Positions 14,151-58,248 of a DNA stretch of 64,000 nucleotides are shown piece by piece. The DNA is from Aquirufa beregesia (lineage in GTDB: Bacteria > Bacteroidota > Bacteroidia > Cytophagales > Spirosomataceae), in NCBI RefSeq assembly GCF_011090385.1, contig NZ_SEWW01000002.1, positions 175,825 to 239,824 on the forward strand, in the 5' to 3' direction. Every line of letters begins with the position of its first letter. Positions within the stretch are counted from its first letter, which is position 1. The notes beneath the pieces were generated by a model that saw only the letters and a list, made by a program, of their open reading frames with translations, had not been told where the DNA came from and did no database searches. A program made the position numbers and the translations under genes.

Positions 14151-14175
14151 TGCACTTCCCTGATTAGAGTTGACC
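14151..14175 (+). repeat. IS terminal inverted repeat (orfB end)
   Basis: This repeat matches the other end at about 19 of 25 positions. Both share the blocks TCCCTGAT and GTTGACC. It contains the orfB stop codon. The preceding ACA is the target-site duplication. Confidence 0.88.
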
Positions 14176-20761: not shown

Positions 20762-21948
20762 TACCAATACCCTATGGAAAACAGCAGATTACTGAAGAAG
20801 ATATTCAATTAGTAGTTGATGTTTTAAAATCAGATTATTTAACTCAAGGCCCTAAAATTGTAGAATTTGAAAAGGCCATGGCATCTTATTTAGGCTGTCA
20901 ATTTGCCGTAGCAGTGTCTAACGGAACCGCTGCATTACATCTTTCGGCTATGGCCTTGGGAGTAAAAAAGGGTCAAAAAGTAATTACCACTCCGATCACT
21001 TTTGCTGCCTCAGCCAATTGTATCCGCTATTGTGATGGAGAAGTTGTATTTGCCGATATTGATCCAGAAACCTATTTATTAGACATAAAGAGCGTCAGGA
21101 GCTTATTAGAGGCTTCACCCAAAGGGACATATCATGGAATTATACCCGTTGATTTTTCAGGTAGGGCTGTAGATTTAGAAGCTTTTAGAAAGTTAGCAGA
21201 TGAATTTGATTGCTGGATCATTGAAGATGCATGCCATTCACCCGGTGGATATTTTATAGATTCAAAAGGAATTCAACAAAATTGTGGGAATGGAAATTTG
21301 GCAGAACTGTCTATTTTTTCTTTTCACCCGGTGAAACATATTGCTTGTGGAGAGGGGGGCATGATTACTACCAATGATGAAGCATTGTATCAAAAACTGT
21401 TACAATTAAGGACTCATGGTATTGTAAAAAATGAAGCTTTGTTTACCAATTCTATTGAATTAGCTGGGGGAGAATCATCTTATCCTAATTGGTATATGGA
21501 AATGCAAGAATTAGGGTATAATTATCGGCTTACCGATTTTCAAGCTGCTCTAGGTTTAGGACAATTATCTAGAGCTGAAAAAGGTCTAGAAATTAGGAGA
21601 AACATAGCCCAAAAATATACTCAGGCTTTTGAAAATATTCCTGAAATAAAGAGAAAATCAGGCAGTGTCATTGGTCATGCCTATCATCTCTATGTCATTG
21701 AAGTAGAGGAGAGACTGCATCTGTATAACTATTTAAAAGCAAATAATATATTCACGCAGATTCATTATTTCCCCACACATTTAATGCCGTATTATCAAAA
21801 TTTGGGATGGGAAGTAGGAGATTGTCCCCATGCCGAAAATTATTATAAAAATTGTATTAGTCTTCCCATGTATCCATCATTGACAGATCAACAATTTGAT
21901 TATGTAGTGGATACCGTTTTGCTGGGTTTAAAGACGAGTAAAAGGTAG
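20758..21948 (+). CDS. pseC: UDP-4-keto-6-deoxy-HexNAc aminotransferase, PseC
   Basis: This 396-residue PLP enzyme belongs to the DegT/DnrJ/EryC1 family and adds an amino group at C4 of the PseB product. Visible marks include SNGTAALHLSAMALG, IEDACHSPGG and the PLP-binding Lys193 in FHPVKHIACGEGG. The C-terminal QIHYFPTHLMPYY is typical of PseC. Translation is coupled to pseB through the ATGA overlap. The product is UDP-4-amino-4,6-dideoxy-beta-L-AltNAc, the substrate for an acetyltransferase such as the one at 27511. Confidence 0.95.
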   Translation: MIPIPYGKQQITEEDIQLVVDVLKSDYLTQGPKIVEFEKAMASYLGCQFAVAVSNGTAALHLSAMALGVKKGQKVITTPITFAASANCIRYCDGEVVFADIDPETYLLDIKSVRSLLEASPKGTYHGIIPVDFSGRAVDLEAFRKLADEFDCWIIEDACHSPGGYFIDSKGIQQNCGNGNLAELSIFSFHPVKHIACGEGGMITTNDEALYQKLLQLRTHGIVKNEALFTNSIELAGGESSYPNWYMEMQELGYNYRLTDFQAALGLGQLSRAEKGLEIRRNIAQKYTQAFENIPEIKRKSGSVIGHAYHLYVIEVEERLHLYNYLKANNIFTQIHYFPTHLMPYYQNLGWEVGDCPHAENYYKNCISLPMYPSLTDQQFDYVVDTVLLGLKTSKR

Positions 21949-24903: not shown

Positions 24904-26091
24904 ATGAAAAGGTGTACCAAATGTTTACTCCCAGAAACACACGAATCAATTTCTTTTGATGAAATGGGTGTTTGTAGTATTTGCAGACAAGTAGAATTTA
25001 AAGAAGGAAAAATTGATTGGGAATCAAGGAAAAAAGACTTGTCTGAACTTATTGAAATGCACAGAGGCAAGTACGATTACGATTGTATAGTTCCTTTTAG
25101 TGGTGGAAAAGATAGTGTGTGGACATTATATTATTTAATGAAGGAGTTTAAAATCAAGCCTCTTGTAGTTCGTTTTGATCATGGTTTTCTAAGGCCAAAC
25201 CTAAATGAAAATACCATCAATGTCTTGAGAAACCTAGGAGCTGATTTTATTTCATTTACTCCCAATTGGAAAGTTGTGCAAAAATTAATGTTGCAAAGCT
25301 TTTTAGAAAAAGGAGATTTCTGTTGGCATTGTCATACCGGAATTTTTTCCTACCCTATGCACATTGCTATTAAATTTAAAGTACCACTTATTTTTTGGGG
25401 TGAACCCTCCGCTGAATACACCTCGTATTACAGCTATGATCAACCTGAAGAAGTGGATGAAAAAAGATTTAATCGCTTTGTGAACCTTGGGATTACAGCT
25501 TTAGATATGGCGGTGAGGTTAGGTGGGGATCTGGATGAAAGAGACTTTAAACCATATACTTACCCTCCTTTGAAAGAATTAAGAGCACTAAATTATAAAA
25601 GTGTATGCCTTGGATCATATATTCCTTGGGATGTAAAGACTCAATCGAAAATCATTATGGATGAATTGGGTTGGAAAGGTGATTTGGTTGAAAATGTACC
25701 TCCTCAATACAATTACGAGAAGATAGAATGTCATATGCAGGGGGTAAGAGATTACATTAAATACATTAAGCGAGGATATACCCGACCTACAGCTTTAGCT
25801 TCCATCGACATTCGTCATGGAAGATTAGATAGAGAAGATGGGGTGAAAATGATAGATGAATTCGAAGGCAAGAAACCTGCTAGCTTAGAAATTTTTCTAG
25901 AAATGGTGGGACTTACCGAAGCAGAATTTTTTGAAATTGCCCAGAGCCATACCGTTTCGCCATGGAAATTGAATGTTTTTGAACAAGAAGCAGGTGCTAA
26001 ATTGCCAGACTTCAACCAATGGACAAGAAATGGCAAAATGGATAGAGCAGAAGCAGATGTTCAAATTGAAAATTGGAGAAAGTCTCAATAG
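24904..26091 (+). CDS. N-acetyl sugar amidotransferase (PseA/WbpG-type), copy 1
   Basis: This 395-residue protein has an N-terminal zinc-type pair CTKC...CSIC and a PP-loop ATPase motif FSGGKDS near residue 66, followed by HCH in FCWHCHTG. The family uses ammonia to turn an N-acetyl group on a sugar into an acetamidino group, as PseA does with pseudaminic acid and WbpG in the Pseudomonas O-antigen. The ammonia source is expected to be the HisH/HisF-like pair directly downstream, which follows with no gap. The substrate here is probably the nonulosonate made by the neighbouring genes. A second, diverged copy is at 56470. Confidence 0.9.
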   Translation: MKRCTKCLLPETHESISFDEMGVCSICRQVEFKEGKIDWESRKKDLSELIEMHRGKYDYDCIVPFSGGKDSVWTLYYLMKEFKIKPLVVRFDHGFLRPNLNENTINVLRNLGADFISFTPNWKVVQKLMLQSFLEKGDFCWHCHTGIFSYPMHIAIKFKVPLIFWGEPSAEYTSYYSYDQPEEVDEKRFNRFVNLGITALDMAVRLGGDLDERDFKPYTYPPLKELRALNYKSVCLGSYIPWDVKTQSKIIMDELGWKGDLVENVPPQYNYEKIECHMQGVRDYIKYIKRGYTRPTALASIDIRHGRLDREDGVKMIDEFEGKKPASLEIFLEMVGLTEAEFFEIAQSHTVSPWKLNVFEQEAGAKLPDFNQWTRNGKMDRAEADVQIENWRKSQ

Positions 26092-27494: not shown

Positions 27495-27510
27495 AAAATA
27501 TTGATTGTTG

Positions 27511-28071
27511 ATGGACCGAGAGTATAGAGTGCTAAATAAACAAGTCTTTACTAAAGATCATTTCCAAATAGTCCCTATTCGAAATATGGATCAATTGGAT
27601 ATTATGAAGTGGAGGAATGAGCAAATTTATCATTTGCGACAAAATAAACCCCTCACGGAACTAGATCAGAGTCATTATTTTACTCGCACAATAGCCAATC
27701 TATTTAATCAAGAAAAGCCTAATCAAATTTTGTTTTCCTATGTAGAAAATGGAAAATGCCTAGGCTATGGCGGCTTAGTTCATATTAATTGGGTTGATAG
27801 AAACGCAGAAATTTCTTTCATCATGGATACCCAACTTGAAAAGGAGTATTTTTCACATCACTGGTTTACCTATTTGAGTTTGATTGAAGAAGTGGCATTT
27901 AAAGAATTACAATTGCATAAAATATATGTCTATGCATTTGACTTGAGACCGCATCTATATACTGTTTTAGAACATAATGGATTTATCAAAGAAGCGGAAC
28001 TAAAGGAACACTGTTATTTCAATGATGCATATAAAAGTGTTATCATTCATTCAAAATGGAATAAGCTATGA
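27511..28071 (+). CDS. GNAT N-acetyltransferase (PseH-like)
   Basis: This 186-residue protein starts at ATG 27511; a TTG two codons earlier is also in frame. The segment MKWRNEQIYHLRQ followed by HYFTRTI resembles the WRN...H pattern of PseH, the acetyl-CoA enzyme that acetylates the C4 amine of the PseC product. The acetyl-CoA region around FSHHWFTYLSLIEE is present but the usual Q/RxxGxG loop is weak. The four-base overlap with the formyltransferase gene suggests both act on the same aminosugar. A second GNAT at 33546 could instead be the PseH. Confidence 0.75.
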   Translation: MDREYRVLNKQVFTKDHFQIVPIRNMDQLDIMKWRNEQIYHLRQNKPLTELDQSHYFTRTIANLFNQEKPNQILFSYVENGKCLGYGGLVHINWVDRNAEISFIMDTQLEKEYFSHHWFTYLSLIEEVAFKELQLHKIYVYAFDLRPHLYTVLEHNGFIKEAELKEHCYFNDAYKSVIIHSKWNKL

Positions 28072-28928
28072 GGTTGGGCTTATTAGTAAGTGGCGGTCTA
28101 GGAGAAGACATTCTTAAAAAAATCAGTGAAATCCATGAAATTGTGTTTGTCTTTACAGACAAACATTCCCTAGAAATCAGGGAATATGTAAACCAACATT
28201 CAATTCCGAATTTTATTGGAAATCCCAGAAATTCAAGAACAGCAGAATTTGTCAAAGACAAAAGTATTGATGTCTTAGTTTCGGTAAACTATTTGTATAT
28301 TATTGATAGTCAGCTAATTGGCTTGCCAATTAAGTTGGCATTTAATATTCACGGATCTTTGTTACCTAAATATAGAGGCAGAACCCCCCATGTTTGGGCT
28401 ATTATAAATAACGAATCTGAAACAGGAATCACAGCTCATGTGATCAATGAAGGTTGTGATACAGGACCTATTTTAGATCAAATGCTTGTTCGTATTGAAC
28501 CTAATGACACAGGTAATATGGTCTTGGGAAAATATAAAAACTGTTATTTCCCCTTAGTGAAGGATGTTCTAGCCAAAATAGAATCTGGTTCATATGAATT
28601 GACCCAACAAGATGATTCATTGGCAACTTATTTTGGAAAAAGAACTCCAGAGGATGGACAGATCAATTGGAATTGGCAAAAGGAACGTATTCGAAATTGG
28701 GTAAGAGCACAAGCTTTTCCATATCCAGGGGCATTTTCATATATTCAAGGGCAGAAAATAATTATTGATGAGCTAGTTTTTGTTGAAAGAGGATTTCATA
28801 GTGAACAACCCAATGGACAAATTTTATCTGTTGATCCAATACTGGTAAAAACGCCGAATGGAGTTGTACAATTGAAACAAGTAAGATCTTTTGACCGAAC
28901 TATCCACTTAGGGGACATTTTAAACTAA
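28068..28928 (+). CDS. sugar N-formyltransferase (methionyl-tRNA formyltransferase-like), intact active site
   Basis: This 286-residue protein has the formyltransferase fold that uses N10-formyltetrahydrofolate. The catalytic triad is present: Asn93 and His95 in FNIHGSLLPKYRG and Asp131 in GCDTGPI. A C-terminal domain (IRNWVRAQAFPYPGAFSY) matches the fmt-C region. Flanked by a GNAT and PseI, it most likely formylates an amino group of the nonulosonate or its precursor; N-formyl pseudaminic acids are known elsewhere. Compare the degenerate relative at 32537. Confidence 0.88.
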   Translation: MRLGLLVSGGLGEDILKKISEIHEIVFVFTDKHSLEIREYVNQHSIPNFIGNPRNSRTAEFVKDKSIDVLVSVNYLYIIDSQLIGLPIKLAFNIHGSLLPKYRGRTPHVWAIINNESETGITAHVINEGCDTGPILDQMLVRIEPNDTGNMVLGKYKNCYFPLVKDVLAKIESGSYELTQQDDSLATYFGKRTPEDGQINWNWQKERIRNWVRAQAFPYPGAFSYIQGQKIIIDELVFVERGFHSEQPNGQILSVDPILVKTPNGVVQLKQVRSFDRTIHLGDILN

Positions 28929-28935
28929 TTAGTAC

Positions 28936-29979
28936 ATGAAAATAGGTTCTTTTGAAATTAATGCAGCATCGGGTGTTTTTATCATAGCAGAACTTTCAGC
29001 AAACCATAATGGTAGCCTTGAGGTCGCGATTGAAACCATTAGGGCAGCAAAACGTTCAGGTGCGGATGCAATTAAACTACAAACTTACACGGCAGATACA
29101 TTGACCATTGATTGTGATCATGAGGATTTTGTGTTGCGTTCTAATTCCATTTGGGATGGTAGAACATATTATGATTTGTATCAAGAAGCTTATACCCCAT
29201 GGGAATGGCATGAGGCTTTATTTAAAGCAGCTGATGAGGAAGGATTAATTTGTTTTTCTTCTCCATTTGATAAAACAGCGGTGGATTTTTTGGAAAATTT
29301 ACAAACCCCAGCCTATAAAATAGCTTCCTTTGAAATAACCGATATTCCCTTGATTGAATATGTGGCGTCCAAACAAAAACCCGTCATTATTTCAACGGGT
29401 ATTGCCACTGAAGAAGATATTTCATTGGCACTGGATGCTTGTTATCGTATGGGAAATAGAGATATTGCTTTACTTAAATGTACCTCTAGCTATCCCGCTC
29501 CCATTGAAGAAGCTAATTTAATCATGGTACAAGATTTAGCTAGTCGATTTAACGTTATTTCGGGATTATCAGATCATACTTTAGGTAGTACTGCACCAGT
29601 GGTAGCCACGGTATTTGGAGGTAAAATTATTGAAAAACACTTTATCTTGGACCGTTCTATTGGAGGGCCCGATGCTTCATTTTCTATGAACGAAGCAGAA
29701 TTTGCGCAGATGGTTAAAGCTGTGCGGGAAGCCGAGAAAGCCATTGGTCAGGTGGATTATCATTTAACGGAAAAGCAAGCCAAAGGAAGAGATTTTAGTC
29801 GCTCCTTGTATGTGGTTGAAAATGTAAAAGAAGGCGAAGTATTTACTGAGAAAAACGTAAGAAGTATTAGACCTGGTTTTGGACTTCATCCAAAATATTA
29901 TGTCAGTGTCTTAGGGCAAAAAGCCAATATGGATATTACTAGGGGTAGCAGGTTATTATTAAATATGTTAAAAAAATAG
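28936..29979 (+). CDS. pseI: pseudaminic acid synthase PseI
   Basis: This 347-residue enzyme condenses phosphoenolpyruvate with a 6-deoxy-diaminohexose to give the nine-carbon acid. The NeuB domain starts with FIIAELSANHNG and contains IKLQTYTADTLT, CTSSYPAP and GLSDHTLG. A C-terminal SAF (antifreeze-like) domain covers about residues 285-347 (RSLYVVENVKEGEVFTEKN). Sequence and length fit PseI better than NeuB or LegI, mainly through the N-terminal TADTLTID context. It shows that the pathway upstream leads to a nonulosonic acid. The hydrolase PseG, normally needed before this step, is not recognisable in the window. Confidence 0.94.
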   Translation: MKIGSFEINAASGVFIIAELSANHNGSLEVAIETIRAAKRSGADAIKLQTYTADTLTIDCDHEDFVLRSNSIWDGRTYYDLYQEAYTPWEWHEALFKAADEEGLICFSSPFDKTAVDFLENLQTPAYKIASFEITDIPLIEYVASKQKPVIISTGIATEEDISLALDACYRMGNRDIALLKCTSSYPAPIEEANLIMVQDLASRFNVISGLSDHTLGSTAPVVATVFGGKIIEKHFILDRSIGGPDASFSMNEAEFAQMVKAVREAEKAIGQVDYHLTEKQAKGRDFSRSLYVVENVKEGEVFTEKNVRSIRPGFGLHPKYYVSVLGQKANMDITRGSRLLLNMLKK

Positions 29980-29989
29980 GCTAATAGGA

Positions 29990-31276
29990 ATGGAAATTGC
30001 TGCTGAAATTGAAGAATATTTTGACAAATTATGGCCATTAAATAGGAGCATAACGGGTTTAGATTTTCGAAAGTCTCTCGAAATATTAGACAATATTATT
30101 CCAACCAATAAAATTTCTTTTAAAACAGGAGAGAAAGTACTTGATTGGACAATTCCATCAGAATGGAATGTTAAAGAGGCATATATTCTAACTCCAAGTG
30201 GAGAAAAGATTGCAGATTTTAAAACAAACAATCTTCATTTAATGGGGTACTCAATTCCAGTAAATGAACGAATAACTTTAGAGGAACTAAGGAATCATAT
30301 TTTCACCTTACCCGCTCAGCCCGAAGCTATTCCATATGTAACATCTTATTACAAAAGGCAATGGGGATTTTGCCTTCCTCATTTACTTTACGAGAAACTA
30401 GAAGAAGGGGAATACACTGTAGTGATAGATTCAGAATTAATCGATGGTATACTTATTGATGGTGATGCGTTAATTCAGGGTAAGTCAGAAAAAGAGATAT
30501 TTTTTTCAACATATTTATGCCATCCATCCATGGCAAATAATGAATTATCGGGCCCATTAGTTTTATCATTTTTATATAGAGAGTTAAAAAAACAAGAGGG
30601 TAATTTGAAATACTCTTATAGGTTTGCGATTCTACCTGAAACTATTGGAGCTGTTGCTTACTTATCTAAGTTTGGTAACTTAATGAAACAAAGGACAATT
30701 GCGGGATATCAAATTACTTGCATTGGCGATAAAGGAGAATTTACTTACAAACGCTCTCGTCAACATAATTCCATGGCAGACAGAGCTGCGGAACAATTTA
30801 TGAAGGAAAATAATCAAAAAAAGATTATTGATTTTAATCCTGCTATTGGAAGTGATGAACGTCAATGGTGTTCACCCGGTTTCAACCTTCCAGTAGGGTC
30901 ATTGATGAGAACTATGTATGCTGTTTATCCAGAATATCATACAAGTTTGGACAATAAATCACTCATGGATTTCCCAGGAATGCAAAAAGCTGTGGAAGCT
31001 TATTTAGATATCATTAATAATATTGAGCAAAATTATTTTTATAAAAGTAATGCTCCATATGGAGAACCTCAACTTGGACCACGTGGACTATTTCGGGCAA
31101 TTTCTGATAAGGATAGACAAGAAGATGAGCTTGCGATGTGGTGGTTATTGAATTATGCAGATGGAGAACATGATTTATTAACTATTGCTAATTTATCAGG
31201 GTTCAAAATGTCAACTTTAATTCGTGTGGGAAGTAAAATAGAGGAATCTGGATTGTTTTCAAAATTAGATATATGA
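29990..31276 (+). CDS. DUF4910/DUF2172 M28-like metallohydrolase-type protein, intact site
   Basis: This 428-residue protein belongs to the aminopeptidase-like DUF4910 group with a DUF2172 segment and a C-terminal winged-helix region (ANLSGFKMSTLIRVGSKIEES). Candidate zinc ligands and catalytic residues are in place: His178 and Glu185 in CHPSMANNELSG, Glu217 in LPETIG, Asp289 in GSDERQW and His317 in YHTSLD. These proteins occur in surface-glycan loci, yet no substrate is proven. An amide-cleaving role on an N-acylated sugar is one possibility and is inference only. It starts 10 bases after pseI and overlaps the next gene by four bases. Confidence 0.85.
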   Translation: MEIAAEIEEYFDKLWPLNRSITGLDFRKSLEILDNIIPTNKISFKTGEKVLDWTIPSEWNVKEAYILTPSGEKIADFKTNNLHLMGYSIPVNERITLEELRNHIFTLPAQPEAIPYVTSYYKRQWGFCLPHLLYEKLEEGEYTVVIDSELIDGILIDGDALIQGKSEKEIFFSTYLCHPSMANNELSGPLVLSFLYRELKKQEGNLKYSYRFAILPETIGAVAYLSKFGNLMKQRTIAGYQITCIGDKGEFTYKRSRQHNSMADRAAEQFMKENNQKKIIDFNPAIGSDERQWCSPGFNLPVGSLMRTMYAVYPEYHTSLDNKSLMDFPGMQKAVEAYLDIINNIEQNYFYKSNAPYGEPQLGPRGLFRAISDKDRQEDELAMWWLLNYADGEHDLLTIANLSGFKMSTLIRVGSKIEESGLFSKLDI

Positions 31277-32535
31277 TTAACAAGGAGGAGATTTGGGACT
31301 TATTCAAATCAATTTTTCCAATTTATCGGACATTATTAGGTAAAGGGTTTAATGATTCATTAGATGAAATATCCAAAACTATTCCCTTGACTAATATTTA
31401 TGAAGTGGAAAGTGGTCAATCAAGCGGAAGTTGGAAAATACCTGATGAATGGATAATTCATACTGCTTGGATTGCTGATTTAGATGGAAATAAAATAATT
31501 GATTTTAAAGAAAATCAATTTCATATTTGGCAATACAGTATTTCCACAGACGAAATTATTTCTCACGAGGAATTAATTAAAAAAATTGCAATTGGAGATG
31601 ATGACTGTATTCCACTGGTGGTTACTTATTATTCGAAAAGATGGGGTTTTTCTGTTAGTGCCAATCAATTTGAAAAATTAAATAGAGACCAATATAGGGT
31701 ATATGTAGACTCCGAGTTTAGAGTAGGTAAATTACAGATTGGAGAAATATTTTTAAAAGGGAGATCTTCTAAAGAGGTTTTAATTGATGCGGTATTGAGT
31801 TGTAATAGTTTAGCTAATAATTTGTCTGGAGTTCTTGGAGCAGTTTTTATAGCTAAATTAATTTCTCAAACATCTAATCATTATTATTCCTATCGAATAT
31901 TATTCTCGCCTGAAACGATTGGTCCTATATCTTTATTTCACCACTTCCCCTCATTATTTAAAAACGTTCAAGGAGGATTTAATCTCATCAATCTGGCAGA
32001 TAAAAATGCTCTAAATTATAAAACAAGTAGGTATCCCACATTGATAGATGATACAGTTGAATATACATTAAAGCAATTCGATAAAGACACTACCATTTCT
32101 AAATATGATGTATTGACAGGCACTTGTGGAAATGAAAAAGCGTATAATTCTTTGGGAATTGAAGTGCCAGTAGGGGCATTAAGAAGAAGTATATTATGTT
32201 CTTATCCAGAATACGATACCTCTAAAGATGACTTTGGATTTATTGATAAAAATAAGTTTTTTGAATCATTAGACATTTTAACTCAGTTGATTCAAAATAT
32301 CGAATTAAATCTATATTATAAACACACTTTTATTGGAGAACCTTTTTTGACGGGTTATGGTCTTTTCCCTAAAATTGAGAAAGACAGTGATCGTATACCT
32401 TATGATTATTTGATGGGTTTTACCAATGGAAAGCTCTCTTTATTGGATATCGTCAACCTAAGCAATCAACCACTTCAAAGTTTCTTTGAGCCTCTTAGAT
32501 TAATGGTAGAGAAAGAACTATTAAAAGAAATTTAA
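31273..32535 (+). CDS. DUF4910/DUF2172 paralogue with lost metal site (predicted pseudoenzyme)
   Basis: This 420-residue protein aligns along its length with its neighbour at 29990, including the IPDEW and YSKRWGFS segments and the C-terminal winged-helix region. The metal site has decayed: CHPSMANNELSG is now CNSLANNLSG (His178 to Asn, Glu deleted), GSDERQW has become CGNEKAY (Asp lost), and YHTSLD is YDTSKD (His lost). PETIG is still present. The frame is open and evenly conserved elsewhere, so this is not a random pseudogene. It could be a regulatory or structural partner of the intact copy, or bind the same ligand. Confidence 0.83.
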   Translation: MINKEEIWDLFKSIFPIYRTLLGKGFNDSLDEISKTIPLTNIYEVESGQSSGSWKIPDEWIIHTAWIADLDGNKIIDFKENQFHIWQYSISTDEIISHEELIKKIAIGDDDCIPLVVTYYSKRWGFSVSANQFEKLNRDQYRVYVDSEFRVGKLQIGEIFLKGRSSKEVLIDAVLSCNSLANNLSGVLGAVFIAKLISQTSNHYYSYRILFSPETIGPISLFHHFPSLFKNVQGGFNLINLADKNALNYKTSRYPTLIDDTVEYTLKQFDKDTTISKYDVLTGTCGNEKAYNSLGIEVPVGALRRSILCSYPEYDTSKDDFGFIDKNKFFESLDILTQLIQNIELNLYYKHTFIGEPFLTGYGLFPKIEKDSDRIPYDYLMGFTNGKLSLLDIVNLSNQPLQSFFEPLRLMVEKELLKEI

Positions 32536-32536
32536 C

Positions 32537-33541
32537 ATGATTTTTGGAAACATATCACATATAATTTTACTTGGAGGATCAAGATGTACGGCTGAATTAG
32601 CACTATACTTGAAGGATGCCACAAATTTTAAATATAATTTATTCACTAGTTCAAGGCAATTGGGGGATATCATATTTGCCAATGGCCAAACTTTTGAGGA
32701 ATATTTAATTGAGAATGAGATTACTTATTTTGTTACCGATGATATTAATCAAAATGATGAATTCCTAAATTCCATTTCGAGAGAAAGCCTCGCTATTGGA
32801 ATTGGAGAAGCCTGGAGTTTTAATCAAGAGGTAATAGCTCTTTTTGATGGCAGATTGATTGATTTAATGGGAATCCGATTGCCACAATACCGAGGAGGAG
32901 CGCATTATACCTGGCAAATTTTAAAAGGAAATAAGATAGGGGCTTGTAATCTTCAAGTAATCAATGAAGAAATGATTCAAGGGGTTTTTGACTCTGGAGA
33001 AATTATAAAATTCAAGGAATATCTTTTCCCGAATGAGGCAAGAATTCCCGATGATTATTTTTCATTTGCCACTTCCCAAGAAATACTTTTCATCAAGGAA
33101 TTCATTGATGAAATTTCCGCTGGGCATCATTTCCAAACGTTCAAGTTACAAGAGAATTTCAGTATGTATTTCCCCAGATTACATACGTTGAAAAATGCGT
33201 TCATTCATTGGCAGTGGGATTCCTTGGATATTGAAAAATTTGTATGTGCTTTTGATGATCCCTACGCCGGAGTTAGTACCCAAATTCACGGAAAATTAGT
33301 GCGGGTGAAAAAAGCTAGATTGGAAAATAATGATGGACCATTTCATCCATTTCAATGTGGATTGATTTATAAAATTTACCAAGGGAATCTTTATATAGCT
33401 ACCCGTCAAGGAACCATAATCATTTCTGAAGTCAATGATGAATTTGGCAATTCTGTCTTATCTGAATTAAGAACTGGTGACCGATTTTTTACTCCTCAAG
33501 ACTGGATTGAAAATGGATTGAAAACTAAAATCGAATATTGA
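32537..33541 (+). CDS. formyltransferase-fold protein with altered active site
   Basis: This 334-residue protein keeps the formyltransferase fold, with LPQYRGGAHYTWQIL and the GVFDSGEI segment, plus a C-terminal region resembling fmt-C (VSTQIHGKLVRVKKA). The catalytic Asn-x-His of the family is replaced: the intact copy at 28068 has NIHGSLLP, whereas this one has DLMGIRLP (Asp109, Met111). The third residue, Asp152, is kept. Normal formyl transfer is doubtful. It begins one base after the degenerate DUF4910 gene and is followed by a GNAT gene four bases on, so it is part of the same sugar-modifying block. It may act on a different acyl donor or be a non-catalytic partner. Confidence 0.8.
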   Translation: MIFGNISHIILLGGSRCTAELALYLKDATNFKYNLFTSSRQLGDIIFANGQTFEEYLIENEITYFVTDDINQNDEFLNSISRESLAIGIGEAWSFNQEVIALFDGRLIDLMGIRLPQYRGGAHYTWQILKGNKIGACNLQVINEEMIQGVFDSGEIIKFKEYLFPNEARIPDDYFSFATSQEILFIKEFIDEISAGHHFQTFKLQENFSMYFPRLHTLKNAFIHWQWDSLDIEKFVCAFDDPYAGVSTQIHGKLVRVKKARLENNDGPFHPFQCGLIYKIYQGNLYIATRQGTIIISEVNDEFGNSVLSELRTGDRFFTPQDWIENGLKTKIEY

Positions 33542-33545
33542 TAAT

Positions 33546-34100
33546 ATGGAATCTTATCATCATTTTTTAGAAGGGTCTGGAATTTTTTTACGTGAAGTAA
33601 GACTTTCAGATGTCAATGAGAATTATTACCAATGGTTAAATGATCCAGAAATTAACCAATTTCTAGAAACCCGTTTTTTGCCACAATCCATTCATACTAT
33701 TGAAGAGTTTGTTAGAAGCAAAGAAGGGAATTCCAATGAGCTACTTTTTGCGATTTGTGATAAAACATCTTCCAAGCATATAGGGAATATTAAAGTAGGC
33801 CCTATTAACTGGATTCATCGATATGCAGATATCAGTCTTTTAATTGGAGATAAAGCATTTTGGGGCAAAGGTGTAGCTACTGAAGCTATTCAATTGGTTT
33901 CCCATTTTAGTTTTAATGTTTTAAACTTACACAAATTGAAAGCCGGTTGCTACGAAAAGAATATAGGCTCCATGAAGGCTTTTGAAAAAGTCGGTTTTGA
34001 AAAAGAAGGATTATTGAAAAAATTATGGATGCTAAACGGAACCTTTCAAGACCAAGTTTTATTGGGGCTTTGTGCAGAAGATTTCCATCCATCAAAGTGA
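33546..34100 (+). CDS. GNAT N-acetyltransferase (second in locus)
   Basis: This 184-residue protein is a RimJ/RimL-type GNAT: IFLREVRLSDVNENYYQWLNDPE at the start, ISLLIGDKAFWGKGVATEAI as the acetyl-CoA loop, and NLHKLKAGCYEKNIGSMKAFEKVGF at the end. The acetyl-CoA binding loop is better preserved than in the GNAT at 27511. It probably acetylates an amino sugar made in this locus, and is the alternative candidate for the PseH step. It lies between the altered formyltransferase and a FemAB-like gene. Confidence 0.85.
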   Translation: MESYHHFLEGSGIFLREVRLSDVNENYYQWLNDPEINQFLETRFLPQSIHTIEEFVRSKEGNSNELLFAICDKTSSKHIGNIKVGPINWIHRYADISLLIGDKAFWGKGVATEAIQLVSHFSFNVLNLHKLKAGCYEKNIGSMKAFEKVGFEKEGLLKKLWMLNGTFQDQVLLGLCAEDFHPSK

Positions 34101-34122: not shown

Positions 34123-35217
34123 ATGCAAAGTCAGGTTATATTTAGAGAAAACCCATCATTTGAAAAGCACTGGAATAATTTTCTCTCTAAGAATTCCCAT
34201 GTGAGTGTTTTTTATTCTTTGAGATGGATGAAGTATCAGCAACTTTATTCCGAAGATAGATTTGTCAAGGACCTGAGTTTTATTTTACTAGCATCTGGCG
34301 AAAACCCCATAGCTATTTGTCCACTTTATCTAGAAACGTATCACGGTGTCAATCGATTTTCTTATAGGGGAGAATTTTTGGAAAGCCTTCGAACTCCTTT
34401 GATAGATCAGTCGGTCATAGAAATGCAAGGAAAAGCCGTAGAAAAGGAAGTCTTCGAAATCATTGATGGTTTGGCTAAGGAACATCAAGTGAAAAAAATC
34501 AATTTTATCATTGATCCGCTCTGTGCCATTTATCTAGAGGAAAATTTCAATTACCTTACTAGAAATGGTTACTTAGATGTCTCCATCTCTACCCAAATTA
34601 TTGATTTGAAGAAAAGTAGAGAGTTATTGTGGATGGAACTAAGGAAGTCATACAAAGCACTAATCAATAAAGGGGAAAGGACCTATGAAGTGGTCATCAT
34701 GGATGTAAACAATCCAGATTTCAATCTCCATGAAAATTACAGAAACCTTCATTTCAAGGCGGCTGGCAGGGTAACTCGTCCATTGGCTACATTCAATCAA
34801 CAATTTGAAATGCTTCAAAATGACGAAGCGATGTTGCTTGGAATTAAGTATCAAGGGCAATTTGTCAGTTTCTCTTATTTTGTTCACTTGAATAAAACAG
34901 CTTATTATGCATCAGAAGCGGATGATCCAGAGGTGGCTGTTCCTTTAACTTATGGTCCACTAAGTCAATGGAAGGCCATGGAGTATTATAAAGCCAGAGG
35001 TTGGGATTATATGGAGCTGGATAACCAGCAGTTTGGTCCCCAGTTTTTTGATTCGCCCACAGATAAGGATTTATCTATATCCATGTTTAAAAGAGGCTTT
35101 GGGGGGGGAACATTTCCTCTATTTAGAGGGGTTCGATATCTTGATCAAGAGCTAATGAAAAGTGAAATTATGGATCAAGCTCAAGTTTTAATGAATGAAT
35201 TAAGTCAACATGAATAA
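34123..35217 (+). CDS. FemAB/BioF2-like acyltransferase (GNAT superfamily)
   Basis: This 364-residue protein shows the two-lobed GNAT architecture of the BioF2-like/FemAB group: VFYSLRWMKYQQLY near the start, a central region LRKSYKALINKGERTYEV, HFKAAGRVTRP, and DYMELDNQQFG near the end. Such proteins move acyl or aminoacyl groups onto polysaccharides, peptidoglycan or lipids. The gene starts 22 bases after the GNAT gene, and its end overlaps the sulfotransferase gene by eight bases. Donor and acceptor are unknown. Confidence 0.75.
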   Translation: MQSQVIFRENPSFEKHWNNFLSKNSHVSVFYSLRWMKYQQLYSEDRFVKDLSFILLASGENPIAICPLYLETYHGVNRFSYRGEFLESLRTPLIDQSVIEMQGKAVEKEVFEIIDGLAKEHQVKKINFIIDPLCAIYLEENFNYLTRNGYLDVSISTQIIDLKKSRELLWMELRKSYKALINKGERTYEVVIMDVNNPDFNLHENYRNLHFKAAGRVTRPLATFNQQFEMLQNDEAMLLGIKYQGQFVSFSYFVHLNKTAYYASEADDPEVAVPLTYGPLSQWKAMEYYKARGWDYMELDNQQFGPQFFDSPTDKDLSISMFKRGFGGGTFPLFRGVRYLDQELMKSEIMDQAQVLMNELSQHE

Positions 35218-36403
35218 AGACAGTAATATGGTCCTGGTCACAGGATTGGCCAGAAGCGGAACTACCTTACTCTCCGAATGTTTAGATCATCATCCTAGCA
35301 TTATGTGTATTGCAGATCCCATGAATGAGTTTTTCAAAGGATTCATGCGTTATGCTTATTTTCACGTGGAAAATGAGAAAAAAGACGTGGGATACCCAAT
35401 CGATCATTTTTTCTTTTCAGGAAGTAAAGAGGTTAGTCGATTCATTGATGAAACCGATTTCAACCATCCCATTCCTCCTTATTTAAAAGAGGAAATATTA
35501 GCGCGTATAGCAATTCGAGATGGAGAGTATTGTCCTGAAATTATTGAGCCGCTTCAGTACTGTAAGGCTACGACATTTGATGGATTATTTCTCGAAATTT
35601 TGCAATTGTTATTTGATGCCTATGGACAAGAAGGGACAACTTGCTTTGGGGTTAAAACTGCTTGGTGCGAGCAACTGCTAAAACCCTTAGCTAGGACATT
35701 CCCCAATATGAAATTTGTTAATATTATACGTGATCCACGTGCCGTGATTGCGTCCAACTATCAAGCAGATGGTTCGCGCTTCCCCTTGTTTTTTAACATA
35801 CGAGATTGGAGAAAATCGGTATATTATCATTGGAAGTTTGAAAATGAAGATGCCTTGATGAAGGATAGATTTGTGGGGGTGAAGTATGAAGACATTATTG
35901 CTGAACCAGAAAAAACACTTCGTAAAATTACGGACCTGCTAGGTGTTAGCTACAGCGCTGATATGATAAATAAAGGGTTTAAAAAACCCAATTCAAGCTA
36001 TCAGGTAAGTGAAGAGTCGAATGGAATTATTTCTGGGTCAAAAGATAAATGGAAAAAAGTTTTACCTCCCGATACCATACTTCAAGCAGAAATATATTGT
36101 GGGGAAGAGATGAAAAAATTGGGATATAGCTTTACTCAGGTGAATCCACCGATAGACTATAATTCACTAGTGAATCTAAAGGATAATTTATTTGAGTCAT
36201 TATCAGGATGGTGTCAAGATATAGTTTCCGATAAAGAAAATTATGAAGGCCTTTGGCATCAATATAATATCCATTTAGAGTCAATCCGTTTACTCTTATT
36301 GCGTGGGAATAATACCCAATATGATAAGAGTTTAGTGGCTGATTTTTTTTACCAGTATGAATATTTTATTTGGCTGCGACAGCAAGGCAAAGACTCAATT
36401 TAA
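35210..36403 (+). CDS. sulfotransferase (PAPS-dependent)
   Basis: This 397-residue protein has the PAPS 5'-phosphosulfate loop TGLARSGTTLL near residues 10-20 and the 3'-phosphate motif IIRDPRAVIASNY near 173-185, so it belongs to the sulfotransferase family. It likely transfers sulfate to a sugar hydroxyl of the glycan. The donor-recycling genes cysQ (38215) and cysC (39425) lie just downstream. The C-terminal 100 residues (after about 300) form an extra helical region of unknown role. The gene overlaps the one before it by eight bases. Confidence 0.87.
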   Translation: MNKDSNMVLVTGLARSGTTLLSECLDHHPSIMCIADPMNEFFKGFMRYAYFHVENEKKDVGYPIDHFFFSGSKEVSRFIDETDFNHPIPPYLKEEILARIAIRDGEYCPEIIEPLQYCKATTFDGLFLEILQLLFDAYGQEGTTCFGVKTAWCEQLLKPLARTFPNMKFVNIIRDPRAVIASNYQADGSRFPLFFNIRDWRKSVYYHWKFENEDALMKDRFVGVKYEDIIAEPEKTLRKITDLLGVSYSADMINKGFKKPNSSYQVSEESNGIISGSKDKWKKVLPPDTILQAEIYCGEEMKKLGYSFTQVNPPIDYNSLVNLKDNLFESLSGWCQDIVSDKENYEGLWHQYNIHLESIRLLLLRGNNTQYDKSLVADFFYQYEYFIWLRQQGKDSI

Positions 36404-36426
36404 TAGGAAAGAATTAGCAAAATTAA

Positions 36427-38181
36427 ATGTCAAATAAACGAGTATTAGTAACGACAGCGGATGAGGGAACATGGCCAAAAGATGAACCCATATTGTTTTT
36501 GGGAGAATGGTGTAGGCAATATCATCGAAAGGAAAGCTGGTCAATACTCGATGCCGAAGTGGTTTCTCCATATGGCCTAGAACCCAATCAAAAGTCCAAA
36601 GATCATCAGCTACTAATTAGGGTATACGCAGAATTACTGGATGAACTAAGCCATGAACTTAATAAGTTACACCAATGTAGTCATAGTCAACGATATTGGG
36701 ATATTGTACTAGGGTATTGGCTTCAACGATTTGTAAGCGTATGTATTAACAGGTATCATGGTTTAATGCATGCTTTGGACCATGATGATATTAGTGAGGT
36801 TATTGTTTATGGGAATGATGAATATAAGTTGGCTACTTTAAATTCTTATGGATTTCAGCTAGCCTTGTACAATGATTTATGGAATCAGAATTTTTATAAA
36901 AGAATATTAGATTTTAAAGGGATCTCTCAACGAAGAAGGATGCCTGTGGAAGATGAGTCAATCAGCTTTCAAAAATCATCACCATTAGTTCAGGAAAAAG
37001 GGTTAAAAGTTTGGCTGAAAGGAGTTTGGAAGTCAGTTTTTCGTTTCTTCATACGAAATGATGATGCTTTTATTATCAATAGTTATTTGCCATTCGGAAT
37101 GGCGGTCAAACTACAATTAAGTTTGGGTCAATTTCCAAGCTTTTGGGAGCAGCAAACAGTAGAGTCAAGCGAATTTGAAAATGATATAAGGAGTAAAATT
37201 TCCTTTAATCATTCGGATCATTCTGGTTTTGACTTATTCATTAGGCAAATTTTACCCGAGAGTATACCCACTTGTTATATTGAAGGTTTCAGCAAATTAG
37301 TTGATTTTACGGCCCAATTACCTTGGCCAAGCACTCCTAAATTTATTTTTACTTCAAACAATTTTGATACTGACGAGGTATTTAAAGTGTGGACAGCGCA
37401 GAAAGTAGAGCAGGGGATTAAGTACTACGTGGGTCAGCATGGGAATCTGTATGGAACGTGGATTTATCATACCCATCAAATCCCCGAATATTCTACCTCA
37501 GATAAATTTATATCCTGGGGTTGGGGAAATAGGACTTCTCACATTGTACCTGCTTTTGTGTTTAAAACGGCCAATCATCCAGTTAGAAAAAACTGTTCTG
37601 GTAAAGGAATATTGTTGATAGAAAGAACGATTTATAATCGATTGGCAACCTATGATAGACACCAAAATCAGGAGATTTACCAGCAAGAACAATTTAGATT
37701 CGTTAATGCACTTCTTCCTGATTTGAAAAATGATCTAAACATTCGACTGTCCTATTATACGCTAGGTTCCTGGAGTGATAAGCAAAGGTGGCTTGATTAT
37801 GATCCTACTCTTCCTTATGATGCAGGGACGGCGCTCATTTGGGATTTAATTGATAAAAGTCGATTGGTGGTTCATTCTTATGATTCTACCGGTATTCTGG
37901 AAACACTTTCATTGAATATTCCTACCATTGCATTTTTTGATCAATTTTATTTTGATGAAATAAATGAAGAAGCTTTGCCTTATTATGAGCTCTTAGAATC
38001 TGTAGGAATATTATTTAGAACTGCCGATGCTGCAGCGAATCATATCAACCAGATTTGGGACAATTTGGAAGCGTGGTGGATGAGCACGGAATTACAAGAA
38101 GCAAAAAATAAATTTTGTCATCAATACGCCCGTAGGGTTGACAACCCCGTCGAATATTTGAAAAATATTCTGGAAAACTAA
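36427..38181 (+). CDS. LIC12162 family putative transferase
   Basis: This 584-residue protein fits the LIC12162 family: it opens with VTTADEGTWPKDEPILFLGEWC, has an early conserved region up to about residue 110, and a C-terminal half with ERTIYNR, VHSYDSTGILETLSLNIPTIAF and DQFYF. The second half looks like a GT-B fold nucleotide-binding region, so a glycosyl or related transfer onto the glycan is plausible. The family was named from Leptospira and is mostly found in surface polysaccharide loci. No reaction is established. It follows the sulfotransferase by 23 bases. Confidence 0.8.
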   Translation: MSNKRVLVTTADEGTWPKDEPILFLGEWCRQYHRKESWSILDAEVVSPYGLEPNQKSKDHQLLIRVYAELLDELSHELNKLHQCSHSQRYWDIVLGYWLQRFVSVCINRYHGLMHALDHDDISEVIVYGNDEYKLATLNSYGFQLALYNDLWNQNFYKRILDFKGISQRRRMPVEDESISFQKSSPLVQEKGLKVWLKGVWKSVFRFFIRNDDAFIINSYLPFGMAVKLQLSLGQFPSFWEQQTVESSEFENDIRSKISFNHSDHSGFDLFIRQILPESIPTCYIEGFSKLVDFTAQLPWPSTPKFIFTSNNFDTDEVFKVWTAQKVEQGIKYYVGQHGNLYGTWIYHTHQIPEYSTSDKFISWGWGNRTSHIVPAFVFKTANHPVRKNCSGKGILLIERTIYNRLATYDRHQNQEIYQQEQFRFVNALLPDLKNDLNIRLSYYTLGSWSDKQRWLDYDPTLPYDAGTALIWDLIDKSRLVVHSYDSTGILETLSLNIPTIAFFDQFYFDEINEEALPYYELLESVGILFRTADAAANHINQIWDNLEAWWMSTELQEAKNKFCHQYARRVDNPVEYLKNILEN

Positions 38182-38214
38182 AAATATACTTTCAGTCACT
38201 TTCTCCTTATTCCT

Positions 38215-39012
38215 TTGAATAAAAATTTCCTATTAAAAATTTCTATTAAGGCGGCTATTGAAGCCGGGATTGAAATATTGAAAGTGTATCAAGGTGATTT
38301 CGTATTTGATACTAAAGCGGATTTGTCTCCTTTAACTCAGGCAGATTTAGTTTCTAATAAGGTGATAAACCAGTATTTGTTAGAAACAGGAATACCCATT
38401 ATTAGTGAGGAAAACAAATTGGATTCTTTTGAGATCCGACAAAAGTGGTCAACTTGTTGGCTGGTGGACCCTTTGGATGGAACCAAGGAATTCATCAAGA
38501 GGAACGGTGAATTCACGGTCAACATAGCGCTGGTAGAAGATGGAATGCCCACTCTTGGAGTGGTTTTTGTGCCTTGTACTAGAGAGCTGTATTATGCGGA
38601 TGTCCAAGCTGGATTGGCTATTAAACAAGTAATTGAAGAAGATTTTTCGATGCCCCAAGAGTTGTATCCAGAATCCTATTTGCTAAGCCTCAAGCCCTCT
38701 AACTTAGACTTAATTCGGGTGGTGGGAAGCAGGTCTCACATGAATGATGAAACAACTAGTTTTATTCATGAGCTGAAGAAATCATACGCTCAAGTGGAAG
38801 TGGTATCTAAAGGAAGTTCTTTGAAATTTTGTTTGGTCGCAGAGGGATTAGCTGATATATATCCGAGGTTTGGACCTACCATGGAATGGGATACTGCGGC
38901 GGGTCACGCTATTTGCAAGGCAATAGGATATCAGGTTATTGACAATAGCACAAAAGAGGAGCTTAGATATAATAAAGAGAACTTATTAAACAATTATTTC
39001 ATCGTAGAGTAA
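38215..39012 (+). CDS. cysQ: 3'(2'),5'-bisphosphate nucleotidase CysQ
   Basis: This 265-residue inositol-monophosphatase-superfamily enzyme removes phosphate from PAP, the by-product of sulfotransfer. Metal-binding motifs are complete: SEEN near 62, DPLDGTKEFIKR near 85, and WDTAAGHAI near 223. The start is TTG 38215 (LNKNFLLKISIK); no ATG is nearby. It sits 33 bases after the LIC12162 gene and four bases before a DUF2061 gene, then cysC, making a small sulfate-donor unit next to the sulfotransferase. Confidence 0.93.
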   Translation: MNKNFLLKISIKAAIEAGIEILKVYQGDFVFDTKADLSPLTQADLVSNKVINQYLLETGIPIISEENKLDSFEIRQKWSTCWLVDPLDGTKEFIKRNGEFTVNIALVEDGMPTLGVVFVPCTRELYYADVQAGLAIKQVIEEDFSMPQELYPESYLLSLKPSNLDLIRVVGSRSHMNDETTSFIHELKKSYAQVEVVSKGSSLKFCLVAEGLADIYPRFGPTMEWDTAAGHAICKAIGYQVIDNSTKEELRYNKENLLNNYFIVE

Positions 39013-39015
39013 ATT

Positions 39016-39438
39016 ATGAAGGATATTACACATTTACGCCATTTAAGTAAGTCCATTTCTTGGCGAGTAGTAGGTACAATAGATACCATTGTAGTCTCAT
39101 TTATAATTACTGGGGAGCCTCTATTGGGATTGAAAATAGGGATATCGGAGCTGATTACCAAATTGTTATTATACTATGTGCATGAAAGGATATGGTTCAG
39201 AATCACCTTCAGAAATAGTAAGCTTAGGCATATGGTAAAATCCATTTCTTATCGATTTTTCGGATCTGTGGATACCTTTCTACTAGCTTGGCTTATTTCA
39301 GGTAATTCAGTTAGTGGTCTTAAAATTGGTTTGACAGAAGTAATTACGAAGATTATACTTTATTATATCCATGAAGAGGTTTGGCATAAATTTAAATTTG
39401 GATTACCCCAAAAACAAGAGACAAATGAAAAACAATAA
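39016..39438 (+). CDS. DUF2061 membrane protein, two tandem repeats
   Basis: This 140-residue protein consists of two DUF2061 units, residues about 6-62 and 72-128. Each has the order SKSISWR / VKSISYR, then a GTIDT / GSVDT turn, a hydrophobic helix, LKIGISELITK / LKIGLTEVITK, and YYVHERIW / YYIHEEVW. Four short membrane helices are likely. DUF2061 proteins are often encoded beside cysC and cysQ or fused to sulfate-assimilation proteins, but the role is unknown. Its last 14 bases overlap the cysC start, implying coupled translation. Confidence 0.88.
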   Translation: MKDITHLRHLSKSISWRVVGTIDTIVVSFIITGEPLLGLKIGISELITKLLLYYVHERIWFRITFRNSKLRHMVKSISYRFFGSVDTFLLAWLISGNSVSGLKIGLTEVITKIILYYIHEEVWHKFKFGLPQKQETNEKQ

Positions 39439-40009
39439 CCTAGAACACTTTTACAAAATCAATAGACAGGATAAGCATGTTTTAAACGGGCATTTATCTA
39501 AAGTAATTTGGTTTACAGGCTTATCTGGTTCAGGAAAATCAACCGTATCAGACCGGGTTCAACAGATTCTGCATGAATCAGGAGTACATACTTATATCTT
39601 AGATGGCGACAAAATCCGCACGGGGATAAACAAAGGACTTGGATTTAGTGAAGCAGACCGAGCAGAAAATTTAAGGAGAGTAGCCGAGATTGCGAAATTA
39701 ATGGTTGATGCGGGTATGGTCGTTTTAGCAGCCTTTATTTCTCCTATGAAAAAAGACCGATTAATGATTCGTGATATTATTGGAGAGGAAGATTTTATTG
39801 AAGTTTTTGTCAATACGAGTCTTGAAATTTGTGAAGAAAGAGATATTAAAGGCTTATATAGAAAGGCAAGGAATGGGGAAATTTCAGAATTTACAGGAAT
39901 CACAAGTCCATACGAAAATCCTGAAAACCCAGATGTAGAACTGAAAGATGGCAATAGTATTGAAGAATCAGTTTCTTTAGTTGTGGAGTATTTGAAAGGT
40001 AAAATTTAA
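39425..40009 (+). CDS. cysC: adenylylsulfate kinase CysC
   Basis: This 194-residue enzyme phosphorylates adenosine 5'-phosphosulfate to make PAPS, the donor for the sulfotransferase at 35210. The P-loop GLSGSGKST is at residues 32-40, and the family motifs LDGDKIRTGINKGLGFSE, RAENLRRVAEIAKL and FISPMKKDR follow. The start is taken as ATG 39425, overlapping the DUF2061 stop; the frame is also open from 39371, but the extra residues do not fit the family. ATP sulfurylase genes (cysD/cysN) are not in the window and must be elsewhere. Confidence 0.95.
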   Translation: MKNNNLEHFYKINRQDKHVLNGHLSKVIWFTGLSGSGKSTVSDRVQQILHESGVHTYILDGDKIRTGINKGLGFSEADRAENLRRVAEIAKLMVDAGMVVLAAFISPMKKDRLMIRDIIGEEDFIEVFVNTSLEICEERDIKGLYRKARNGEISEFTGITSPYENPENPDVELKDGNSIEESVSLVVEYLKGKI

Positions 40010-40061
40010 TTATTGTAAGCCATAATGAACATGGAAACAAAGAGACTATTTGAACTATAAG

Positions 40062-41513
40062 ATGCAATTTAACTCATTCAGTTTTGCTTTATTTTTACCA
40101 ATAGTTTTTCTATTGTATTGGTTCGGAACTAGAGGTAATTTGAAACTTCAAAATATCTTACTTTTAGTTTCAAGCTATTTTTTTTATGCTTGTTGGGATT
40201 GGAAATTCCTGTTTTTACTGATTTTCTCTACTTTGCTCGATTATTATACTGGAATAATGATACATCGGTCAGAAGAGCATAAAAAGAAGCTTTTTTGGCT
40301 TTGGTTGAGTATCATCGTTAATTTAGGTTTTCTTGGCGTTTTCAAGTATTATAATTTCTTCGCTTCTTCATTTGTCACTGCATTAGCCCAGATAGGCTTG
40401 AATGTCCATGTAGAAACTTTGAATATCATATTACCTGTTGGAATTTCATTTTATACATTTCACGGTTTATCCTATGTGATTGATATTTATAAAAATAAGA
40501 TTAAGCCGGAGCGTAATTTTATTGACTATTCTTTATTTGTGAGCTTTTTCCCATTATTGGTAGCAGGTCCTATTGAAAGAGCAACTCACTTATTACCACA
40601 AATCATCAAAAAGCGAGAGTTTAACTATTTAAAAGCTGTTGATGGGTTGAAACAAATAGTGTGGGGCTTATTTAAAAAGATAGTCATTGCAGATAATTGT
40701 GCTGAATTTGCCAATGTTATTTTTAATAATTCTCAAGACTATTCAGGAAGTACTTTAGTATTAGGGGCTTTATTTTTTACATTTCAGATTTATTGTGACT
40801 TTTCAGGTTACTCAGATATTGCACTTGGAACTGCCCGTTTATTTGGAATAGAGCTTTTAAGAAACTTTGCTTTCCCTTATTTTTCAAGGGATATTGCAGA
40901 ATTTTGGAGGCGGTGGCATATTTCATTATCCTCTTGGTTTAAGGATTACCTCTACTTTCCATTAGGAGGAAGTAAATCAGGGATGCTTATCAAAATTCGA
41001 AATACATTTATCATTTTTCTAGTTAGTGGATTCTGGCATGGAGCTAATTGGACATTTATAATTTGGGGATTTCTCAATGCTTTATATATCATGCCTTCTA
41101 TCATTTTTAATACCCATAGGAATAACCTTGATATGGTGGCAAGTGGGAGAAGCTTGCCAAGCTTAAGAGAATCATTATCCATTGGAATTACTTTTAGTTT
41201 GACTGTTTTTGCATGGATTTTCTTTAGAGCTAATGATGTTAGTCATGCATTTAACTTTATTTCTGAAATATTTTCTAGTTCACTTGTAAGCATTCCTTAT
41301 TTCCGAGGAATTGGTAAAGCGGCAATAATTGTCCCTATTATTTTCCTTTTTCTATTAGTAGAATGGATAGGAAGAGAAGGGCAATACGCCATTTCACATG
41401 TAGGTATTACCTGGAAAAGGCCATTTCGCTACTTTTTTTATTATGTACTATTATTTATGATTCTTTACTTTGGGAATTTTAATGAAAGTCAATTCATTTA
41501 TTTCCAATTTTAA
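40062..41513 (+). CDS. MBOAT family O-acyltransferase (AlgI-like)
   Basis: This 483-residue membrane protein starts at ATG 40062 (MQFNSFSFALFLPIVF), not at the in-frame TTG 12 bases earlier. About ten or more helices are present. The MBOAT signature includes the conserved His326 in SGFWHGANWTFIIWG and the DYYTG, AGPIERA and DFSGYSDIA segments of AlgI. The enzyme moves acetyl groups across the inner membrane for O-acetylation of a polysaccharide. The SGNH-like protein encoded two bases downstream is its probable periplasmic partner, as in AlgI/AlgJ systems. Confidence 0.92.
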   Translation: MQFNSFSFALFLPIVFLLYWFGTRGNLKLQNILLLVSSYFFYACWDWKFLFLLIFSTLLDYYTGIMIHRSEEHKKKLFWLWLSIIVNLGFLGVFKYYNFFASSFVTALAQIGLNVHVETLNIILPVGISFYTFHGLSYVIDIYKNKIKPERNFIDYSLFVSFFPLLVAGPIERATHLLPQIIKKREFNYLKAVDGLKQIVWGLFKKIVIADNCAEFANVIFNNSQDYSGSTLVLGALFFTFQIYCDFSGYSDIALGTARLFGIELLRNFAFPYFSRDIAEFWRRWHISLSSWFKDYLYFPLGGSKSGMLIKIRNTFIIFLVSGFWHGANWTFIIWGFLNALYIMPSIIFNTHRNNLDMVASGRSLPSLRESLSIGITFSLTVFAWIFFRANDVSHAFNFISEIFSSSLVSIPYFRGIGKAAIIVPIIFLFLLVEWIGREGQYAISHVGITWKRPFRYFFYYVLLFMILYFGNFNESQFIYFQF

Positions 41514-41515
41514 TA

Positions 41516-42559: not shown

Positions 42560-42629
42560 AACGGTTATATCCAAATTTGATAGCATCAAAAGAATCTAAT
42601 AATCATAAGTCCCATTTTAATAAAAAATC

Positions 42630-57609: not shown

Positions 57610-57610
57610 G

Positions 57611-58246: not shown

Positions 58247-58248
58247 AT

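Follow-up and report, generated by a model that had tools for sequence, protein, structure and literature searches.

The sole solved relative found for the DUF4910 proteins considered here is CA_C2195 of Clostridium acetobutylicum (PDB 3k9t). In this protein and its homologues, the two-zinc site and the catalytic Asp and Glu of the M28 aminopeptidases are absent, Ser191 and Pro225 occupying the two catalytic positions in 3k9t (PMC4000134). A single zinc is held by H189, D195 and H324, and crystal packing and light scattering both describe the protein as a trimer (PMC4000134). From the genes that neighbour family members, Das et al. argue for a role in sugar modification, not in proteolysis (PMC4000134). 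In Campylobacter, Cj1295, listed as a DUF2172 protein and putative M28 peptidase (PMC6321876), is required for di-O-methylglyceroyl pseudaminic acid; its authors' working hypothesis is that the C5 acetamido group is removed and another acyl group is then added (PMC3068675). Literature searches on pseudaminic acid with aminopeptidases and formyltransferases, on legionaminic acid with deacetylases and on pseudoenzymes gave nothing on the DUF4910 family, and the accessible portions of the family literature found report no catalytic activity for a DUF4910 protein.

Here, we describe a tandem pair of DUF4910 genes in Aquirufa beregesia, one member of which has lost its putative metal site. The window analysed is a 64,000-nucleotide stretch of contig NZ_SEWW01000002.1 (positions 175,825 to 239,824), to which all coordinates refer. 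Copy 1 (29990-31276, 428 aa) and copy 2 (31273-32535, 420 aa) lie head to tail on the forward strand and share the four bases ATGA at 31273-31276. Both open reading frames are in frame, full length and placed as the initial annotation had them, and they are the sole two DUF4910 matches in the 3.2 Mb genome. Aligned over 402 columns, the two proteins show 34% identity. Pfam assigns DUF4910 with the DUF2172 insert to each, copy 2 scoring 182.6 bits for DUF4910 (PF16254, cut-off 26.6) and 87.5 bits for DUF2172 (cut-off 27). HTH_47 is present in copy 1; copy 2 has no Pfam match to it at E 0.001, though helices and strands are modelled in that region and copy 2 as a whole aligns with 3k9t over its full length. 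Structure prediction, proposed as a check when the pair was first noticed, gave a high-confidence AlphaFold2 (AF2) fold for each protein: mean pLDDT was 94.2 for copy 1 and 92.7 for copy 2, the latter model leaning on an alignment of intact relatives, and each had a TM score of 0.90 to 3k9t. Both copies have the three-domain fold of CA_C2195 in common over their whole length, and share their core fold with Peptidase M28 zinc aminopeptidases (e.g. 2ek8, 6hc6). The positions of the M28 catalytic Asp and Glu are S180 and P216 in copy 1, and S179 and P213 in copy 2.

The pair sits within a forward-strand run encoding PseB and PseC (19751-21948), the first steps of pseudaminic acid synthesis, together with an aldo/keto reductase, a cytidylyltransferase, an aminotransferase, a WbuX-type N-acetyl sugar amidotransferase (24904-26091, TIGR03573), two GNAT acetyltransferases (27505-28071 and 33546-34100), two formyltransferase homologues, FT1 (28068-28928, with its NIHG motif intact) and FT2 (32537-33541), and a PseI-type (pseudaminic acid) synthase (28936-29979; TIGR03586, 511.8 bits, cut-off 340). 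The run also contains what we take to be a HisH/HisF-like pair. It is a nonulosonic (pseudaminic-type) acid locus, and its product is a modified sugar of the pseudaminic acid type. The same run includes a LIC12162 family transferase (36427-38181, TIGR04331) with no Pfam match at E 0.01. Genes for a sulfotransferase, an inositol-monophosphatase-like protein (presumably CysQ-type) and an adenylyl-sulfate kinase are grouped at 35210-40009, which suggests a sulfated glycan. A second WbuX-type amidotransferase set lies at 56470-59025; this set, including a further presumed HisH/HisF-like pair, is 29-35% identical to the first set of a congener (genome G021).

The zinc ligands of 3k9t (H189, D195 and H324) map to H178, N184 and H317 in copy 1. 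In copy 2 they map to C177, N183 and D315, and the residue equivalent to Glu185 is deleted. Copy 1 therefore has both His residues of a zinc-binding member together with Glu185 beside N184, while copy 2 lacks the His/acid/His arrangement and, compared with the M28 aminopeptidases, is additionally without the ligands that remain in 3k9t. The initial annotation had listed H178, E185, E217, D289 and H317 as kept in copy 1, and all are present. It had also read copy 2 correctly in the deletion that removes the Glu, in the absence of Asp from the GSDERQW motif (D289 is Asn) and in the Asp that replaces His in YHTSLD (H317 to D315). Its Asn178 at the position of His178 was an alignment slip: the aligned residue is Cys177, and Asn178 pairs with Pro179.

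We placed both copies in an alignment with 120 other rows (122 in total; open reading frames above 350 aa only, the congener's gene being present twice, as G021 and L008). The rows are no census but a sample skewed towards copy 2, as the two patterns used in the scan contained motif letters of copies 1 and 2. The second His is kept in all 120 other rows and is absent from one row of the 122, that of copy 2. The first His is kept in 117 of 120, the three exceptions (two of them the same gene) being a type with HID in place of CHPS. At positions 184/185, 83 of the 120 rows have N-E and 37 have D-x. The acid thus shifts by one place among relatives and is missing in copy 2 alone, making Glu185 a fair guess for a ligand, and plausibly the one used in copy 1's subfamily. 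The same does not hold for Glu217, the other Glu among the ligands first predicted. It is kept in copy 2 (E214), but 24 of the 120 other rows have Gly in its place, so it is no essential ligand of the family. None of the 120 rows has Cys at the first His or Asp at the second. It had been allowed at the outset that the family might use other ligands that copy 2 retains, yet all three 3k9t ligand positions differ in copy 2, a loss unique among the 122 rows sampled.

A further part of the original reading, that the catalytic residues had been lost selectively, was not borne out. Of the 64 columns conserved at 95% or more, copy 2 retains 43, and losses affect 8 of 21 active-site columns as against 13 of 43 other conserved columns (Fisher p 0.58). 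Here, the active site was defined as five segments, and the conservation reference was built without the rows of L007, L008, L127:259, L113:5828 and G021, leaving 115 rows in one such reference. Changes are spread over all domains: they reach the N-terminal RSITG motif, D52 and Y116 in the lid, and some of the positions that make trimer contacts in 3k9t. Near-invariant D289, R291 and Q292, beside the metal site, are gone, and Glu214 (in PETIG), Glu288, Asp319, Arg19 and four of five conserved lid aromatics are kept. As far as sequence can tell, the metal site of copy 2 is broken as part of a general change. Within the trimer contact region, copy 2 has Ser at the position of D63, which 118 of the 120 other rows keep, and F389-W393, a stretch that varies across the family, reads IPYDY. 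These contact-region changes neither favour nor exclude a heteromer.

Despite this divergence, the gene is not visibly decaying. Copy 2 is full length with no stop or frameshift, as first described, and its codon-position G+C pattern is gene-like. Its codon preference (0.200) matches that of its neighbours (0.199 for copy 1, 0.04-0.20 for 20 other genes). When neutral drift was simulated from copy 1 down to 34% identity, none of 200 frames stayed open. From the present copy 2, 53 of 300 frames were open at 95% identity and 8 of 300 at 90%. The open frame, codon use and drift results together therefore indicate that copy 2 has probably been maintained as a protein over most of its past. In sequence and in model it combines lost catalytic residues with a kept fold, which is one mark of a pseudoenzyme.

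Among the genomes searched, copy 2 was seen in this one only. With copy 2 as the query, full-length relatives reached no more than 36% identity in 99 genomes of relatives, 390 of the order, 38 of the genus or 395 of the class, sets that overlap and that each count A. beregesia itself; two shorter matches in the class reached 39% over 262 and 183 residues. A first scan of 84,980 species genomes gave no match, and a second gave 579 relatives, the best 80 of which were examined, with none above 37% among these. Plasmids yielded 42 records with one place each, the best listed at 33.5%, and no pair. Viral contigs and phages held no copy 2 orthologue, nor did any other set searched. DUF4910 was matched at E 1e-15 in 16 of 395 phylum genomes (A. 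beregesia included), and the tandem pair was seen in A. beregesia only; one other genome of that set (G652) has two matches, far apart. No adjacent pair was seen in the 80 other genomes behind the best 80 loci. Seven of these have two DUF4910 matches at E 1e-8, on the same contig about 4 and 6 kb apart in two genomes and on different contigs in five, where contig ends limit any reading of adjacency. The check for a degenerate second copy alongside the intact one elsewhere thus found no other example in the genomes searched, and there is therefore no comparative support for an obligate pair. Two candidates were rejected along the way. A possible hidden second copy at L074:7892-9109 has only a weak profile match (E 0.019) and is Antibiotic_NAT in Pfam, and two pieces in L118 were taken for a single gene interrupted by a TGA rather than for a gene pair. 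Separately, two sugar clusters, in an Olavius Gamma 3 symbiont and a Helicobacteraceae MAG (L113:5828-7174 and L127:259-1644), each contain DUF4910 genes of two different types separated by a few kb, and the metal-site His and acid residues are present in both.

The nearest relatives of copy 1 are from Bacteroidota and Balneolota (tree of 61 of the 122 rows; the structure alignments also had 61 rows). Copy 2 has a branch of 5.61 against a median of 0.52 in that tree. Given this long branch, its tree placement was set aside and AU tests alone were used. Neither of two placements was rejected: copies 1 and 2 as a sister clade had p-AU 0.595, with a log-likelihood 4.1 above the free quick tree, and copy 2 inside the clade of copy 1 had p-AU 0.74, with a likelihood also above that tree. 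The simplest history is that copy 2 is probably a tandem duplicate from copy 1's own lineage that then changed faster.

What is new here is the contrast with the congener, whose operon is otherwise colinear and has one distant DUF4910 gene where A. beregesia has the pair. From PseB to the second GNAT gene, the congener's proteins are 81-98.5% identical to those of A. beregesia in the same order, except in the DUF4910 slot. Synteny extends upstream to 8277 (a transposase-like pair aside) and downstream to 40009, resuming at 43385. DNA similarity breaks off at about 29978, inside the PseI stop codon, and returns at about 32519, among the final codons of copy 2 and 18 bases before FT2, so that the forward-strand segment 29979-32518 is exchanged as a unit. 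In place of the 2.5 kb pair, the congener has a single DUF4910 protein of 431 aa. This protein shares 24% identity with copy 1 and has an M28-like HID..ND site, an EYHSSHD motif and a borderline match to Peptidase_M28 (21.1 bits, cut-off 21.3). The congener's genome gave no second DUF4910-like match to copy 2. As the exchange occurs within colinear operons, the single gene takes the place of the pair and vice versa, and this swap is the strongest argument for regarding the two genes as one unit. By the same token, the congener manages with one gene, and a silent partner is therefore not generally needed for the operon.

Two other differences fall outside the slot. Between conserved genes at 14164-15428 lies a transposase-like pair of open reading frames, which we take to be IS3-like, with no match in the 40 kb of the congener compared. 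At 40050-43364, three open reading frames, presumably MBOAT-, SGNH- and methyltransferase-like, likewise have no match in those 40 kb, and the congener has there a 182-aa open reading frame unmatched in the window.

A second apparently dead homologue adjoins the pair. FT2 starts one base after the stop codon of copy 2 and is 22% identical to FT1. Its catalytic motif is DLMG where NxHG is expected, the Asn having become Asp and the His Met, and the third, acidic, position is retained. The catalytic role given to these three positions follows ArnA and FMT. Relatives of FT2 were found in 28 places, and 19 loci besides the window's own were aligned. The His is kept in all 20 other homologues (FT1 and the 19 loci) and the Asn in 14 of 20, while FT2 and its congener orthologue (in L132) have Met and Asp. 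Beyond the congener, relatives are distant, the best at 32%. Between the two congeners, FT2 is 83.5% identical with dN/dS 0.098 (NG86). This value indicates purifying selection, so the seemingly dead FT2 is being maintained, apparently as a pseudo-formyltransferase.

We propose that a zinc amidohydrolase-like enzyme, copy 1, is accompanied in this operon by a paralogue, copy 2, that is maintained but catalytically silent. Copy 1 would deacylate the sugar and copy 2 would act as its non-catalytic partner, a proposal to which we give about an even chance. Formyl- and acetyltransferases flank the pair on both sides, from which a deacylate-then-reacylate role may be inferred for copy 1. It would strip an N-acyl group from the nonulosonate, and the neighbouring transferases would then attach another. 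The ATGA overlap would perhaps allow copy 2 to be made beside copy 1 by translational coupling. As 3k9t is trimeric, mixed oligomers are possible, and in these copy 2 might stabilise or tune the active subunit, or hold substrate. A PseI-like synthase occurs in at least 40 of 71 NNE-type loci, many of which are incomplete. The claim of a maintained pseudoenzyme partner stands in part: copy 2 is a full-length, undecayed family member with a broken site, and what favours its putative role as a partner is the tandem overlap together with the swap of the two-gene unit for one gene in the congener. Counted against that role are the one-gene congener, the lack of a copy 2 orthologue in the sets searched and the losses across all domains; Cys177 and Asp315 could, moreover, hold a metal.

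This last point opens an alternative that we consider unlikely, namely that copy 2 is a neofunctionalised enzyme whose altered site (Cys177, Glu214, Asp315) uses another metal or none and acts on a different amide or acyl group of this sugar. Cys and Asp are possible metal ligands sited at ligand positions, the retained acids, Arg19 and lid aromatics would suit a working site, and the clusters in L113 and L127 show that two different DUF4910 types can occur in one sugar cluster. However, neither substitution is seen in any of the 120 other rows, and the near-invariant residues beside the site are also gone. The position of FT2 raises the quite unlikely prospect that copy 2 is a non-catalytic subunit for FT2, not for copy 1, both forming a substrate-holding scaffold. 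The single base between the genes, and the conserved substitution of His in an FT2 under purifying selection, are consistent with this, but the congener retains FT2 although it lacks copy 2. Copy 2 might also be a redundant duplicate that was long useful and from which selection has only just been lifted, a reading that we consider about as unlikely. Its presence in one of 38 genus genomes, its very long branch and the absence of a counterpart in the congener fit such a release, while the lack of any stop or frameshift speaks against it; frames closed so quickly in the drifts from the present sequence that only a recent release is likely.

Returning to the partner reading, we speculate, with little confidence, that the slot downstream of PseI is an exchange site for sugar-editing modules. 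One module would be a single M28-like deacylase and the other an active DUF4910 protein with a required dead paralogue, which together with FT2 would make a complex having two non-catalytic subunits, each drawn from the enzyme family that it assists. The natural exchange of one gene for two provides a clean route to the function of the slot, in that one can compare the two glycans and swap the genes.

Compared with 3k9t, copy 2 differs in having C, N and D where the zinc ligands lie. Cj1295 has a DUF2172 domain and a pseudaminic acid locus in common with copy 1, a likeness drawn from its domain listing, and the available text of its reports mentions no degenerate partner, unlike the pair described here (PMC6321876, PMC3068675). 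The original suggestion that such a partner is undescribed for sugar loci needs narrowing. A degenerate tandem DUF4910 gene goes unnamed in the titles and abstract openings of the family literature found, but catalytically dead partners are known in sugar pathways. EryCII and DesVIII are P450 homologues that lack the heme cysteine; the glycosyltransferases of erythromycin and pikromycin synthesis need them, and the same source mentions at least 12 further glycosyltransferases of this kind (PMC3391682). If copy 2 is indeed a partner, it would show how dead paralogues turn into subunits in nonulosonic acid pathways. Like the role proposed for copy 2, EryCII and DesVIII are dead homologues of an enzyme family that act as partners in a sugar-transfer pathway; unlike it, their effect has been shown by experiment, and they serve a glycosyltransferase of another fold rather than their own paralogue (PMC3391682).
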